Source of the DNA: Nitrospirota bacterium
GTDB lineage: Bacteria; JACPQY01
Reading direction: 5' to 3'
DNA length: 64,000 nucleotides
Assembly (NCBI GenBank): GCA_016190245.1
Contig: JACPQY010000048.1
Location: 1-64,000 of the forward strand
How positions within the stretch are numbered: the first letter of the stretch is position 1; each line of letters opens with the position of its first letter. Under the pieces are notes generated by a model that was not told the origin of the DNA, did not search any database, and saw nothing but the letters and a program-made list of their open reading frames with translations. A program made the translations under genes and the position numbers. This document shows, one piece after another, positions 2,713 through 27,811 of this stretch.

Positions 2713-3618
2713 ATGGAGGGCGCTCCCAAAGGTCTGATTTTCGATATCCAGAGGTTTTCGGTCCATGATGGGCCGGGGATCCGGACGACGGTCTTTCTCA
2801 AGGGCTGTCCCCTCCGCTGCCCGTGGTGCCAGAACCCGGAGTCGCTGCGGCCGCGCGCAGAGATCGCCTTCTACGCCGACCGCTGTCGCGGGTCCGGTGG
2901 ATGCTTTCCACATTGCGAGGCACGGGCGCTTCGCAGGGATGGGGACCGCGTGGACAGAATCCGATGCGACGCCTGCTCGGCCTGTGTGGACGCATGCCCG
3001 TACAACGCCTACCAATTGGTGGGGCGGGAGATGGGGGTTGAGCCGCTCATCGAGGAGATTCTGCGTGACCGGCCGTTCTATGAGACGTCCGGGGGGGGTG
3101 TGACGTTCTCCGGTGGCGAGCCCACGCTCCAGATGGAGTTCCTCGGGGCGGTGGCCGCGCGGTGCCGGGAGTCGGGTGTGAGGGTCTGTCTCCAGACCTG
3201 CGGTCTCTTTGGTTGGGAGGCGTTCGAGCCGCTTCTTGGCCTGTTCGAATTCATCCAGTTCGATCTCAAGATCATTGACGCGGAAGAACACCGGGCCGTG
3301 ATGGGGGCCGACAATCGCGTGGTACTTGGCAACGCGCGGCGGCTGGTGGAGTTGAAGGCCCCGGTGGTGTTCCGCATGCCCGTGGTGCCGGGATTCACCG
3401 ATCCCGTCTCGAATCTCCGGGACGTCGCGGCCTTTCTGGGCGAACTCGGCGTGAGCGGCCTTCATCTGCTGCCCTATCATGCGATGGGCGAGGCCAAGCT
3501 GCCCCGATTGGGCTATCCGCTGCCGGCCTTGGGGATTCCCGAGTCGACGAACGGAAGGGAGGCGTTGGGCCGGGCCGAGCGCTACTTCCGGGAGGCGGGA
3601 TTCGAGGTCGCGGCGTGA
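2713..3618 (+). CDS. glycyl radical enzyme activating protein (radical SAM)
   Basis: 301 residues. Radical SAM cluster motif CPLRCPWC (Cys32, Cys36, Cys39), then two inserted ferredoxin-type clusters (Cys58/64/68 and Cys85/88/91/95), and the SAM-contacting GGEP at about 134-137. This architecture is that of activases of non-PFL glycyl radical enzymes, such as those of HpdA, BssD and CutD type. It abstracts hydrogen from the active glycine of its partner, encoded immediately downstream with a 4-bp overlap (GTGA). Start ATG 2713 is chosen for the conserved start; ATG 2703 in another frame is not used. Confidence 0.9.
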   Translation: MEGAPKGLIFDIQRFSVHDGPGIRTTVFLKGCPLRCPWCQNPESLRPRAEIAFYADRCRGSGGCFPHCEARALRRDGDRVDRIRCDACSACVDACPYNAYQLVGREMGVEPLIEEILRDRPFYETSGGGVTFSGGEPTLQMEFLGAVAARCRESGVRVCLQTCGLFGWEAFEPLLGLFEFIQFDLKIIDAEEHRAVMGADNRVVLGNARRLVELKAPVVFRMPVVPGFTDPVSNLRDVAAFLGELGVSGLHLLPYHAMGEAKLPRLGYPLPALGIPESTNGREALGRAERYFREAGFEVAA

Positions 3619-23149: not shown

Positions 23150-23220
23150 TGCCCCTGCCCGGATTTGAATCCGCCACGGCGGAGAACCTTCCCGCCGGTT
23201 GGCGGGACGCTCTATCCAAC
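23150..23220 (-). pseudogene. 3' remnant of a tRNA-Arg-like gene
   Basis: On the minus strand the segment TTGGATAGAGCG, AAGGTTC, TTCAAATCCGGGCAGG and final GGGGCA parallels the D-arm to 3' end of tRNA-Arg(CCG) located 340 bp upstream. The 5' acceptor strand and half of the D-arm are absent, the anticodon loop is irregular, and a TCCGCC-GT-GGCGGA hairpin interrupts the T-arm, so it cannot be a working tRNA. The stop codon (TAG) of the GIY-YIG gene lies inside its D-arm. Confidence 0.6.
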
Positions 23221-23472
23221 GTGAAGGAAGGTCGATCGAATCCACGCCCGGCCGACGCCGGACTTGAGTTGGCGCCGCCGCCTTGCCGCTTCCGGCGAAG
23301 TGGGTAGGTTTTCGCTGTGGATGAGCCACCAGCGGCCCTGCCCGCGGTGTGTGAACTTGGATCGGGCGGGGCGGGGCTGGTTGTGTTCGGCGATTCGGCG
23401 AGGCAGCTCGGCCGTGCGGCCGGTGTAGATCTGGTCGGTGGCGGGACGGTAGAGAACGTAGACGACAAACAT
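23212..23472 (-). CDS. small GIY-YIG nuclease (tRNA-linked)
   Basis: 86 residues. VVYVLYRPATDQIYTGRTAELPRRIAEHN carries the GIY (YVLY) and YIG (YTGRT) motifs, the conserved Arg and EHN; a later Glu (HSENL) and LKSGVGRAWI complete the small single-domain UvrC-like form. It begins 14 nt after tRNA-Arg(CCG) on the same strand and ends inside a tRNA-Arg remnant, so it could be co-transcribed with the tRNA. A cargo gene or homing-type nuclease placed at a tRNA attachment site is likely. Confidence 0.8.
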   Translation of the reverse strand: MFVVYVLYRPATDQIYTGRTAELPRRIAEHNQPRPARSKFTHRGQGRWWLIHSENLPTSPEAARRRRQLKSGVGRAWIRSTFLHVG

Positions 23473-23486
23473 CTCCGCCCTCCCTC

Positions 23487-23560
23487 TGCGCCTGCCCGGA
23501 TTTGAACCGGGAACCTTTGGCTCCGGAGGCCAACGCTCTGTCCAATTGAGCTACAGGCGC
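23487..23560 (-). tRNA. tRNA-Arg(CCG)
   Basis: A full cloverleaf on the minus strand: acceptor GCGCCTG/CAGGCGC, D-arm GCTC-GAGC, anticodon arm TTGGC-CTCCGGA-GCCAA (anticodon CCG, reads CGG), T-arm CCCGG-TTCAAAT-CCGGG, discriminator A at 23487. CCA is not encoded. An extended -10 (TGC-TATGCT) lies about 10 nt upstream of its 5' end. Confidence 0.93.
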
Positions 23561-24691: not shown

Positions 24692-25324
24692 ATGGGAGTT
24701 CGCGAGCGACGCCAACGGGAGCGGGAGAGCCGGCGGAGGGACATCCTGTTGGCCGCCGAGCAGGTTTTCGGGGAGAAGGGATTCCAGTCGGCCACGATCG
24801 AGGACCTGGCGGCACGCGCGGAACTCTCCGTCGGGACGCTCTATCTCTATTTCAAGAGCAAGGAGGAGCTTTTCATCTCGCTCATCTTCGAGGCCATGTC
24901 CGTTTTCCACGGAGGCCTGCTCAAGATTCGGCGGTCGTCCCGGCCGCCCGCCGCCAAGCTGCGCGAGGTCTGGGCGTTCTTCATCCGGTTCCGCGAGGAG
25001 CATCCGATGTACTACAAGGCCCTCCTGCACCTGCACGACGCGGACTTCACGCGCTCCCTCTCGCCTCCCGTGCGGGAAGCGATCCTGCAGCGGTCGGGCG
25101 AGAACTTCGACCTCGGCGGGCTGATTGTTTCCGAAGGCGCACCGGACGGACGCCCCCGCAGCTTCATCGAGCTTCTCTGGGCGGCTTTCATGGGGCTGGT
25201 CTACATCCAGGACACGCGTCGAAATCTTTCGCGCGCGTACGATCCGCGAAAAGATCGGGCGTTCTTCAGGCGAGCCTACGGGGTTCTGGAGCTGGGTCTG
25301 GCCAGGGCGGGGGGGGGGCTGTGA
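24692..25324 (+). CDS. TetR-family transcriptional repressor
   Basis: 210 residues. N-terminal helix-turn-helix (RRRDILLAAEQVFGEKGF, then TIEDLAARAELSVGTLYLYF) and a helical ligand domain. It begins 2 bp after the dehydrogenase stop and its own stop overlaps the first thiolase (GTGA). Being inside the operon it would sense a pathway intermediate, probably an acyl-CoA, and act on the dyad at 23640-23660. Confidence 0.92.
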   Translation: MGVRERRQRERESRRRDILLAAEQVFGEKGFQSATIEDLAARAELSVGTLYLYFKSKEELFISLIFEAMSVFHGGLLKIRRSSRPPAAKLREVWAFFIRFREEHPMYYKALLHLHDADFTRSLSPPVREAILQRSGENFDLGGLIVSEGAPDGRPRSFIELLWAAFMGLVYIQDTRRNLSRAYDPRKDRAFFRRAYGVLELGLARAGGGL

Positions 25325-26352
25325 CGGTCCATGTGGCGGGGATCGGCCGGACGCGATACGGCCGGGACGAGCGTTCGATACCTGAAATGGTGTACGAGGC
25401 TGTGACGGCCGCCCTGGCCGATGCCGGTGTCACGCGGGATGAGATCGATTCGATTGTGACCGCCTCGATCGATCTCTTCGATGGAAAGGTGGCGTCGAGT
25501 GTCCTGATAACGGAGGTTGTCGGCGCGGTCATGAAGGAAGAGGCGCGCGTCGCCGACGACGGGGCGGCCGCTTTCGTCCACGCGTCGGCGATGCTCCTCA
25601 GCGGGCGGAAGGAGACGGTGCTGGTGGTAGCCCACGCCAAGAACTCGGAGGCCGATGCGGACGCGCTCACGGCGTGGAGCACGGACCCGATCCACATGCA
25701 GTCGTTGGGTCTCAACGATCTGACCGCCGCGGCGCTCCAGGCCGATGCGTGGCTGGCGCAGGGGGGAGATCCCGACGCGATGGACGCTGTGGCTGCCCGG
25801 CGGTTGGGCGTCGCTCCTGCCGAGGTGGCTTCGTCTCCCGTTATCGCCGAGCCCCTTAGGGAGAAGCACCGCGCGCCGCTGGTCGATGGCGCTTGCGCGC
25901 TGGTCCTAACGTGCGACGTGCGACGCGCGACGTGCGACGTGGGGGTTTCCGGCATGGGCCTTTGCGTGGAACCGCACTACTTGGGAGACCGGGATCTGAT
26001 CGGATGTCCGGCCGCACAGAAAGCGGCCGAGCAGGCGTATCGAATGGCCGGCTGGCGTCCGGAGGACGTGCAGTTGGTGGAGATCTCAGCGCAGTTCGCA
26101 CACCAGGAAATCCTATGGACGAGGGCTCTGAGGTTTGCTGAGGACGACGGACGGCGGTCGGTCGACGGTGGCGCCATCAACCCCAGCGGGGGTTGGTTTG
26201 CCGGAAACCCCTACGTCGTGGCCGGGCTCGAACGGATTGCCTGTGCCGCGGAAGCCATCCGCACGGGCACGGCTCGGAGGGTGCTGGCCCATGGCTGTTG
26301 GGGACCGGCGGGGCAGGGCCACGCGGTGGTCCTGCTGGAGGGGGGGAGGTGA
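25321..26352 (+). CDS. thiolase-fold protein without catalytic cysteine (SCP2/Ltp-like), first
   Basis: 343 residues of the SCPx-type thiolase superfamily: AGIGRTRYGRDERSIPEMVYEAV at the start, INPSGGWFAGNPYVVAGL near the C-terminus. The usual nucleophile-loop cysteine is replaced: the loop reads VADDGAAAF. The C-terminal His of GHP is also altered (GNP). Such cysteine-less members act in complexes with DUF35 proteins, for instance the Ltp2 retro-aldolases of steroid side-chain breakdown. A five-copy 7-bp repeat at 25909-25943 inserts a variable RRATCDV stretch. The stop TGA at 26350-26352 uses the first base of the mobile element. Confidence 0.8.
   Translation: MTVHVAGIGRTRYGRDERSIPEMVYEAVTAALADAGVTRDEIDSIVTASIDLFDGKVASSVLITEVVGAVMKEEARVADDGAAAFVHASAMLLSGRKETVLVVAHAKNSEADADALTAWSTDPIHMQSLGLNDLTAAALQADAWLAQGGDPDAMDAVAARRLGVAPAEVASSPVIAEPLREKHRAPLVDGACALVLTCDVRRATCDVGVSGMGLCVEPHYLGDRDLIGCPAAQKAAEQAYRMAGWRPEDVQLVEISAQFAHQEILWTRALRFAEDDGRRSVDGGAINPSGGWFAGNPYVVAGLERIACAAEAIRTGTARRVLAHGCWGPAGQGHAVVLLEGGR
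25909..25943 (+). repeat. 7-bp tandem repeat within the first thiolase-like gene
   Basis: Five units of ACGTGCG with single changes in units 3 and 5. The unit length is not a multiple of three, so a gain or loss of one unit would shift the reading frame. Confidence 0.8.
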
Positions 26353-26655
26353 CCCCGCACCTATCCTTGCCGGCGATGCACTACGTGTATGTTTTGCACA
26401 GCCTGCACCGGGAATGGGCATACATCGGGTACACCAGTGACCTGCCGAGACGCATGAAGCCGCATCGCGATGGAAAGGTCCCCTCAACGAGGGCCTATCT
26501 GCCCGTGCAATTGATCTACTACGAGGCGTACTTGTCTTCTGAAGACGCAAGGCAACGGGAGAAAGGCCTCAAGTACTTTGGCAGAGCGTATGCCCAGCTC
26601 AAGAGACGCATGGATGGCAGCCTGCGTCTTCTACAGGCAAGGATAGGTGCGGGGT
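26352..26655 (+). mobile_element. 304-bp GIY-YIG element with perfect 20-bp terminal inverted repeats
   Basis: The left end ACCCCGCACCTATCCTTGCC (26352-26371) is exactly repeated in inverse at the right end (26636-26655). The only gene inside is a GIY-YIG nuclease whose last codons are encoded by the right repeat. GAGGTG and GAGGCG flank the two ends, a possible 6-bp target duplication with one change. The element sits exactly between two genes that otherwise would be coupled, and base composition inside is visibly less GC-rich than around. No transposase is present. It therefore is either a self-contained nuclease element or a non-autonomous one. Confidence 0.75.
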
Positions 26656-26657
26656 GA
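26376..26657 (+). CDS. small GIY-YIG nuclease carried by the inverted-repeat element
   Basis: 93 residues. MHYVYVLHS gives the GIY motif, AYIGYTSDLPRRMK the YIG motif and conserved Arg, and IYYEAY the metal-binding Glu, so the active site looks intact. Starts at ATG 26376, 4 nt after the left inverted repeat. The final residues QARIGAG and the stop (26655-26657) are specified by the right repeat and the first flanking bases. Single-domain enzymes of this type are often multi-copy in genomes; a second, tRNA-linked copy is at 23212-23472. Confidence 0.85.
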   Translation: MHYVYVLHSLHREWAYIGYTSDLPRRMKPHRDGKVPSTRAYLPVQLIYYEAYLSSEDARQREKGLKYFGRAYAQLKRRMDGSLRLLQARIGAG

Positions 26658-27811
26658 GGCGCGTCGCCATCGTGGCCACGGGCCAGACCGATCACGCCAA
26701 GGAAAGGGGCGACGTGAGCCAGCCGGAACTCATCTACGAGGCTGTTTCTCGCTGCATCGAGGACGCCGAGCTGGAGCCGCGGGACATCGACGCCGTCGTC
26801 CTCGCTAACATGGAGCTCTTCGAGGGGAGGATGCTGCCGGACCTGTGGTGCGCCGAGGCGGCCACGGCCCTTTTCAAGCCGTGCCTCAAGATCGCGACGG
26901 GTGGAACGTCCGGCACCTCAGGGGCAATCGCAGGTTTCTATGAGGTGGCCTCGGGGATCTTCGAGACGGTCCTCGTGGTCGGCTGGGAGAAGCACTCCGA
27001 GGGACACACACAGACGGGGATGGCGATGACGGACCCTATGTGGGACCGTCACGTCGCCGGAGGCGCGCTCAACAACTTCGCAATCTCGATCTCGCAATTC
27101 ATGCGCACGCGACACGCTTCTCCCGAGGCGGCCGCGCGGATTGCCGTGAAGGCCCGGCGCAATGCGGCGCTCAATCCGCACGCACACCTGAAGATGCCGG
27201 GGCTGACGGTGGAGCAGGTGATGGAGTCCAGGGTCCTTGCCGAACCGGTTCGCCTCCTCGACATGTGTCCGCAATCGGATGGCGCCTGCGCCCTGGTGTG
27301 GGCGGCCGAAGGAAAGGCGGAGCGGATCTGCCCGCGACCCGCCTGGCTCCAGGCCACGGCCACGCGACACGACAAGCCCTATCTTGGCGACCACGGCGAT
27401 CGCCTCTCGACCATGAGGACACTCCGGAGCGCAGCCGCGGAGGTGTACGAGGAGCTCGAGATACGCGAGCCTCTGAAGGAGTTCGATGTCGCCGAGATCT
27501 ACGAGCCTGTAAGCTACGCGGAACTCGCGTGGTACGAGGCGCTGGGGTTTTGCGGCGAGGGGGAGGCCTCGCGACTTGCGGAGGACGGAGTGACCGAGCT
27601 CGATGGAGAGCTGCCCGTGAATCCGTCCGGAGGTGTGCTCTCCACGAATCCCGTGGGGGCCTCCGGTGTGATCCGCGCCGCCGAGGCGGCTCTCCAGATA
27701 CACGGTCGCGGCGGGAAGCGGCAGGTCCCGGACGTCCGCAGGGCGCTCGTCACCGGCTATGGGGTCTACTCGTGGTCGGATGTGATGGTCCTTGGAGCGG
27801 AGAAGCCGTGA
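26654..27811 (+). CDS. thiolase-fold protein without catalytic cysteine (SCP2/Ltp-like), second
   Basis: 385 residues. N-terminus RRVAIVATGQTDHAKERGDV and C-terminal VNPSGGVLSTNPVGASG identify the SCPx/archaeal thiolase group. Where a nucleophilic Cys is expected the loop reads IATGGTSGTSG, and the usual GHPxGATG is NPVGASG, so both catalytic Cys and His are gone. It probably pairs with the first thiolase-like protein and the DUF35 protein coded next (4-bp overlap). GTG 26654 draws its first two bases from the right repeat of the inserted element. Confidence 0.82.
   Translation: MRRVAIVATGQTDHAKERGDVSQPELIYEAVSRCIEDAELEPRDIDAVVLANMELFEGRMLPDLWCAEAATALFKPCLKIATGGTSGTSGAIAGFYEVASGIFETVLVVGWEKHSEGHTQTGMAMTDPMWDRHVAGGALNNFAISISQFMRTRHASPEAAARIAVKARRNAALNPHAHLKMPGLTVEQVMESRVLAEPVRLLDMCPQSDGACALVWAAEGKAERICPRPAWLQATATRHDKPYLGDHGDRLSTMRTLRSAAAEVYEELEIREPLKEFDVAEIYEPVSYAELAWYEALGFCGEGEASRLAEDGVTELDGELPVNPSGGVLSTNPVGASGVIRAAEAALQIHGRGGKRQVPDVRRALVTGYGVYSWSDVMVLGAEKP

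Follow-up and report, generated by a model that had tools for sequence, protein, structure and literature searches.

A roughly 300-bp repeat-bounded element with a single GIY-YIG nuclease gene at start codons and in structural RNA genes, a likely minimal mobile unit

Between two thiolase-like genes of the window, by which we mean the whole 64,000-nucleotide stretch of DNA that was analysed, lies a small gene enclosed by perfect inverted repeats: the 20 bp on the left are the exact reverse complement of the 20 bp on the right. A simple count puts the chance expectation at about 1e-5 perfect 20-bp inverted repeats spaced within 300 bp per 64 kb. The features of the locus are as follows; G001 denotes the only genome of the same family among the 97 other genomes searched.

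25321-26352, forward strand: upstream thiolase-like gene, the target context, with a homologous neighbour gene in G001 (C21:49850-50881)
26350-26352, forward strand: target duplication copy 1, TGA, which doubles as the stop codon of the upstream gene
26353-26654, forward strand: mobile element proper, 302 bp, delimited by the inverted-repeat borders and the TGA duplication, with a second genome locus of like architecture
26352-26371, forward strand: left terminal inverted repeat (TIR), ACCCCGCACCTATCCTTGCC, exact reverse complement of 26636-26655
26376-26657, forward strand: GIY-YIG nuclease gene, 93 aa, PF01541 E 1.3e-11, pLDDT of the model 95.3
26636-26655, reverse strand: right TIR, with Shine-Dalgarno-like AAGGA (26639-26643) and AGGTG (26645-26649) ahead of the GTG at 26654
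26655-26657, forward strand: target duplication copy 2, TGA, which doubles as the stop codon of the GIY-YIG gene and whose TG completes the downstream GTG
26654-27811, forward strand: downstream thiolase-like gene, which begins at the insertion-made GTG; its G001 ortholog is 85% identical and has no element before it

The initial annotation had described perfect 20-bp TIRs around a single GIY-YIG gene with apparently intact active-site residues, and had placed the upstream stop codon (26350-26352) and the downstream GTG (26654-26656) so that both share bases with the element. All of this held: the repeats are exact reverse complements, the only open reading frame between them (26376-26657) belongs to PF01541, 72 relatives share its active-site residues without exception, and the coordinates of both codons are correct. 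The further proposal that the flanking GAGGTG and GAGGCG form a target duplication failed and was rejected; the duplicated flank is instead the 3-bp TGA at 26350-26352 and 26655-26657. The element proper therefore spans 302 bp, the junctions read GAGG-TGA-element-TGA-GGCG, and the downstream GTG consists of the last G of the element and the TG of the second TGA.

The match of the 93-aa protein to PF01541 exceeds the curated cut-off, and membership of the GIY-YIG superfamily is further met by the invariance of Y5, Y16, G18, R26 and E50 in the 72 relatives. Its fold was predicted confidently, and the nearest solved folds are UPF0213 protein BH0048 (1zg2, E 6.7e-14) and Slx1, a branch-cutting nuclease (sequence E 0.0007-0.02, TM 0.53-0.63). 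Where dN/dS could be computed it lay between 0.03 and 0.2, showing that the protein is under purifying selection. The window also contains a second small GIY-YIG gene (23212-23472, reverse strand, 86 aa, PF01541 E 3.8e-8), which lies directly 3' of tRNA-Arg(ccg) (23487-23560) and has no terminal repeats; a repeat-less, tRNA-linked GIY-YIG subgroup is present among the relatives too.

We searched for further copies of the repeat. The initial annotation had named uniqueness of the repeat in the genome as grounds for refuting mobility, and had suggested looking for repeats without a gene. The repeat is not unique: its own genome (G000) holds 17 matches at up to 3 mismatches, compared to none for a reversed control pattern, and G001 contains 9 exact repeat cores, while the remaining 96 genomes yielded a single match in total, in one genome and probably by chance. 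A second complete GIY-YIG copy of 300 bp lies in G000 at C37:36055-36354, with ends as in the window element and a protein 64% identical (aa) to that of the window, and G001 carries two GIY-YIG elements of 299 and 286 bp with the TIRs CCCCGCACCTTTCCCGGAT and CCCCGCCCATGCCG. Gene-less copies were found both as pairs, enclosing about 110 or about 210 bp in G000, and as four solo ends whose partner is absent within 700 bp of available sequence, one of these (L005) lying only ~500 bp from a contig end. The solo ends retain the gene-proximal side, so that in copies whose distal end is lost it is the end equivalent to the right TIR that stays intact. In total, at least 11 unrelated insertion sites are occupied in G000. 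We found no transposase open reading frame inside any TIR pair or beside the solo ends in G000 or G001, with the reservation that a strongly diverged partner or a distant trans-acting enzyme could have escaped detection and that the G000 assembly is 84.8% complete. Separately, a GIY-YIG gene elsewhere in G000 (L023, C56:111738) lies between near-identical palindromes, GCCCCGCCGGAGGCGGGGC and GCCCCGCCGCCGGCGGGGC, and repeats of CACCTGAATGGGGTTCAGGTGG, which may represent another GIY-YIG-linked repeat family.

The positions of the copies were precise. Flank duplications of 3-4 bp accompany 12 of the 13 two-ended copies of G000 and G001, whereas they occurred in 2.4% of cases at shifted positions and in 22% with mismatched flanks; the duplicated sequences are TGA, TGAA, TGG, TGGA and TTGA. 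Furthermore, 15 of 18 copies lie exactly at a start codon, with the terminal G of the element and the TG of the target forming a GTG that opens a long open reading frame, and with the opposite flank retaining the old ATGA or GTGA. Among the proteins that start at such junctions are adenylate kinase (VNLILLGPPG), GMP synthase (VDRIVILDAGGQY) and a carbamoyltransferase (VNILGISCFYHDAAAAL), and these starts resemble the native starts of their families. Gene-bearing and gene-less copies of this lineage alike thus occupy (A/G)TGR starts with a 3-4 bp duplication. Comparison of the copies shows that insertion into a start codon restores a GTG and leaves the host gene readable, because a new GTG forms and the Shine-Dalgarno-like AAGGATAGGTG lies ahead of it; that AAGGATAGGTG acts as a Shine-Dalgarno stretch is only a possibility inferred from sequence alone. 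At the adenylate kinase (adk) start, G000 carries a 112-bp copy whereas G001 has only an end remnant, GGGATAGGTGCGGATTG; this decayed solo end (L147) contains the secY stop codon TAG.

We also compared the window locus between the two genomes. The G001 ortholog of the downstream gene is likewise preceded by the homologous neighbour, and the intergenic gap of ~56 bp consists of unrelated sequence without repeats or a GIY-YIG gene. The orthologous locus is thus unoccupied, yet it is not a base-precise empty site, because its 56-bp spacer differs. A guaA ortholog for a further empty-site comparison was not assembled in G000, and for a tRNA element no relative was close enough to show an empty site with base precision. 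Occupation of multiple unrelated sites, presence and absence between relatives, and TIRs with a duplicated target, all of which were observed here, are what is expected of a transposable element. Thus, since the repeat is not unique, gene-less copies exist and the orthologous G001 gene pair is unoccupied, the mobility proposed in the initial annotation is well supported by comparison.

To see how widely this architecture occurs, we compared the 80 best GIY-YIG relatives, from Patescibacteria, Omnitrophota, Scalindua and others. In about 50 of the 80, distributed over many phyla, CCCCGCACC-type TIRs flank an element of ~300 bp, with a span of ~275-330 bp in most; about 30 show no TIR. The inverted-repeat score around the relatives' genes had a median of 12 and a 90th percentile of 21, compared to 7 and 9 in a control in which flanks were shuffled between loci, and reached 11 or more in 50 of the 80, although a few high scores (e.g. 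L076 and L106) reflect other palindromes. The ends are alike and can be aligned (CCCCGCACCTT, CCCCGCCCTTT, CCCCACACC, CCCCTCAC and ATCCCCACACC), and TIR distances correlated with protein distances (r 0.365, Mantel p 0.0005), also among distant pairs (r 0.28, p 0.001). Several genomes contain two or three elements with differing ends at differing sites. The protein tree was poorly resolved because only 88 columns were available, and the count of 20 target changes is only indicative. No relatives were found in viral contigs.

Start codons are not the general target of these elements: only 4 of 52 repeat-bearing relatives are placed at one, which equals the control rate (58/832) and led us to reject this idea. 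Instead, 28 of the 52 lie in structural RNA genes (23S, 7; 16S, 7; RNase P RNA, 6; tRNA 5' ends, 8), and those in the rRNA and RNase P RNA genes occupy hairpin regions. At tRNA-Ala, several relatives show a 7-bp duplication (CCAGTAG, CCCGTAG). The RNase P site, aatcg|CCCC...GGGG|aggaaagtcc, hosts elements with differing ends and is occupied in both orientations (L127 and L118). Within the same taxonomic family, members whose RNase P RNA lacks the element show a short hairpin at this position instead, e.g. aatcgCCCCGATTTATTGGGGAGGAAAG or aatcgCCCCGCCCTAGGCGGGGAGGAAAG, and therefore the comparison shows that the element ends stand in for the P3 stem, although whether the stem was swapped or merged is undecided. 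Two further arrangements were observed in RNA genes. Three Patescibacteria RNase P RNAs (L234, L235 and L237) carry palindromic inserts, CGAGCGAAGCGAGGC, at the P3 position without GIY-YIG ends. At another locus (L084) a weak tRNA-like copy (2911-2988) lies upstream of the GIY-YIG gene and a good tRNA-Cys (3243-3315) directly downstream, which looks as though insertion might have duplicated part of the tRNA.

What the comparisons show is a repeat-bounded one-gene unit with gene-less derivatives, target duplication, precise sites and host-gene restoration. We consider it likely that this unit moves autonomously as a minimal element of ~300 bp, composed of two CCCCGCACC-type TIRs and one small GIY-YIG gene whose nuclease probably mobilises it; the role and activity of the enzyme are inferred. 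The initial annotation had likewise proposed mobilisation by a GIY-YIG enzyme and not by a transposase, for which our support is indirect: TIR pairs contain no transposase, TIR and protein co-diversify, and the architecture recurs in ~50 of 80 relatives. The GIY-YIG protein is inferred to be the cutter because the pairing of gene and ends recurs, the two co-diversify, the protein is under selection and no other enzyme was found in or beside the copies. In the proposed mechanism, the nuclease would recognise the repeats, perhaps as hairpins, together with the target and would make staggered cuts, which host repair or replication would then fill and join. GIY-YIG enzymes are known as hydrolytic nucleases and none is known to join strands; host repair is the simplest guess for the joining step. 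Gene-less copies would be moved in trans, and loss of the distal end would leave a solo end serving as the translation start of a gene. Against this explanation stand the varying length of the duplication (0, 3-4 or 7 bp), which is unlike that of a typical transposase, the hydrolytic nature of GIY-YIG enzymes, the ~30 relatives that show no TIR, the imprecise empty site in G001 and the restriction of start-codon placement to this lineage.

Among the alternatives, the most serious is a MITE-like element whose movement is driven in trans by a transposase, of the DDE or another type, encoded elsewhere, with the GIY-YIG gene as a captured passenger. MITEs typically have TIRs, short duplications and gene-less copies, and the incompleteness of the G000 assembly leaves room for an unseen enzyme. 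However, the gene sits at a constant distance inside like ends in ~50 relatives from many phyla, it is subject to purifying selection and co-diversifies with the TIRs, and a transposase was found within none of the TIR copies of the two genomes. Membership of the DDE insertion sequences or MITEs, which would call for a transposase with like ends, was not met in G000 or G001; a strongly diverged partner cannot be excluded, and we regard this explanation as unlikely. It is less likely still that the element represents classical homing by a free-standing or intron-borne GIY-YIG endonuclease at allelic sites only. Intron GIY-YIG homing enzymes do exist, and several genomes have an insertion at one shared RNase P site, but the many unrelated sites within one genome (at least 11 in G000) do not fit a restriction to allelic cognate sites, insertions at the RNase P site point in either direction, and neither TIRs nor duplications nor gene-less copies are characteristic of homing. 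GIY-YIG insertions in CPR rRNA have also been judged to lie outside a homing context (Tsurumaki et al. 2024, PMC11270868). A group I or II intron was rejected, as no Rfam match, intron or other, was found around the open reading frame (25800-27300 of the window, E up to 1).

A REP/RAYT origin, in which the repeats would be REP-like palindromes moved by Y1 (RAYT) transposases, can draw on the 8 Y1_Tnp genes of G000 (L027-L034), several of which are flanked by inverted repeats. Where found, however, these flanking repeats (GGGGTCAGAGCTTG, GGGGACATTCC and GGGACGTTGTTTCC) differ from the TIR, and the best match to the TIR core near any RAYT still has 3-4 mismatches. RAYTs would not be expected to duplicate their target on insertion. 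With none of the 8 Y1 genes near a CCCCGCACCTATCC-type TIR core, RAYT was rejected as the mobiliser, and this explanation is very unlikely. The RAYT units of G000 themselves have several end types: GGGGTCAGAGCTTG, GGGGTCAAGTCTTG, GGGGACATTCC or GGGACGTTGTTTCC. Finally, the end sequence could be merely a conserved ribosome-binding and start region of the lineage and not a mobile end, as the 15 of 18 copies before start codons and the existence of solo ends might suggest. This is practically ruled out: the majority of copies are inverted pairs with duplicated start-codon flanks, the orthologous G001 locus lacks the end, and relatives lie in RNA genes.

The preferred reading, a mobile element with its own GIY-YIG nuclease, shares features with several known systems. 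Like DDE insertion sequences and MITEs, the element has TIRs, short target duplications and internally deleted, gene-less copies; unlike them, its sole gene encodes a GIY-YIG nuclease, no transposase was found in TIR pairs, the duplication length varies and insertion is precise at starts or in RNA genes. It has in common with I-TevI-type homing endonucleases the catalytic domain and a presumed drive of mobility by cleavage, but it has no intron or separate DNA-binding domain (93 aa in total), possesses TIRs and occupies many unrelated sites. Its nuclease is closest in solved fold to UPF0213 and Slx1, but these cellular proteins are either of the repair type or uncharacterised and are not known from within TIR elements. 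The palindromic elements of Rickettsia are likewise short and tolerated in structural RNA and protein genes, but they are in-frame open reading frame inserts without a nuclease or start-codon replacement. The closest precedent is found in CPR 16S and 23S rRNA, where GIY-YIG open reading frames occur in non-intron insertions without a match to group I or group II introns, and where rRNA insertions of all kinds lie mostly at the top or base of stem-loops (PMC11270868). That study names no mechanism; its main text does not mention inverted repeats, and its relevant sections describe no duplications, gene-less derivatives or non-rRNA sites. We found no prior description of a bacterial GIY-YIG element with terminal repeats in the literature searched, from which subscription journals and preprints were largely absent. 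The element type is therefore likely to be new, subject to the literature not covered, although GIY-YIG open reading frames in CPR rRNA insertions were already known.

A bolder reading, which we hold to be more probable than not, is that these elements form an undescribed superfamily of ~300-bp bacterial transposons. In place of a transposase they would rely on a GIY-YIG nuclease of a single domain, and they would be common across Patescibacteria, Omnitrophota and further uncultured lineages. Such transposons would insert at translation starts or structural-RNA hairpins and be nearly harmless, with their ends rebuilding the start codon or the RNA stem. If true, a type of nuclease not known to drive TIR transposition would do so in an element among the smallest autonomous ones known; by inserting at a start codon or RNA hairpin and then rebuilding it, the element would avoid doing harm. 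The short nuclease and the short, defined ends make this directly testable. It would also account for those GIY-YIG insertions in CPR rRNA genes that are not introns and have so far lacked an explanation, and a solo end would be a way for mobile DNA to turn into the ribosome-binding site of a gene.
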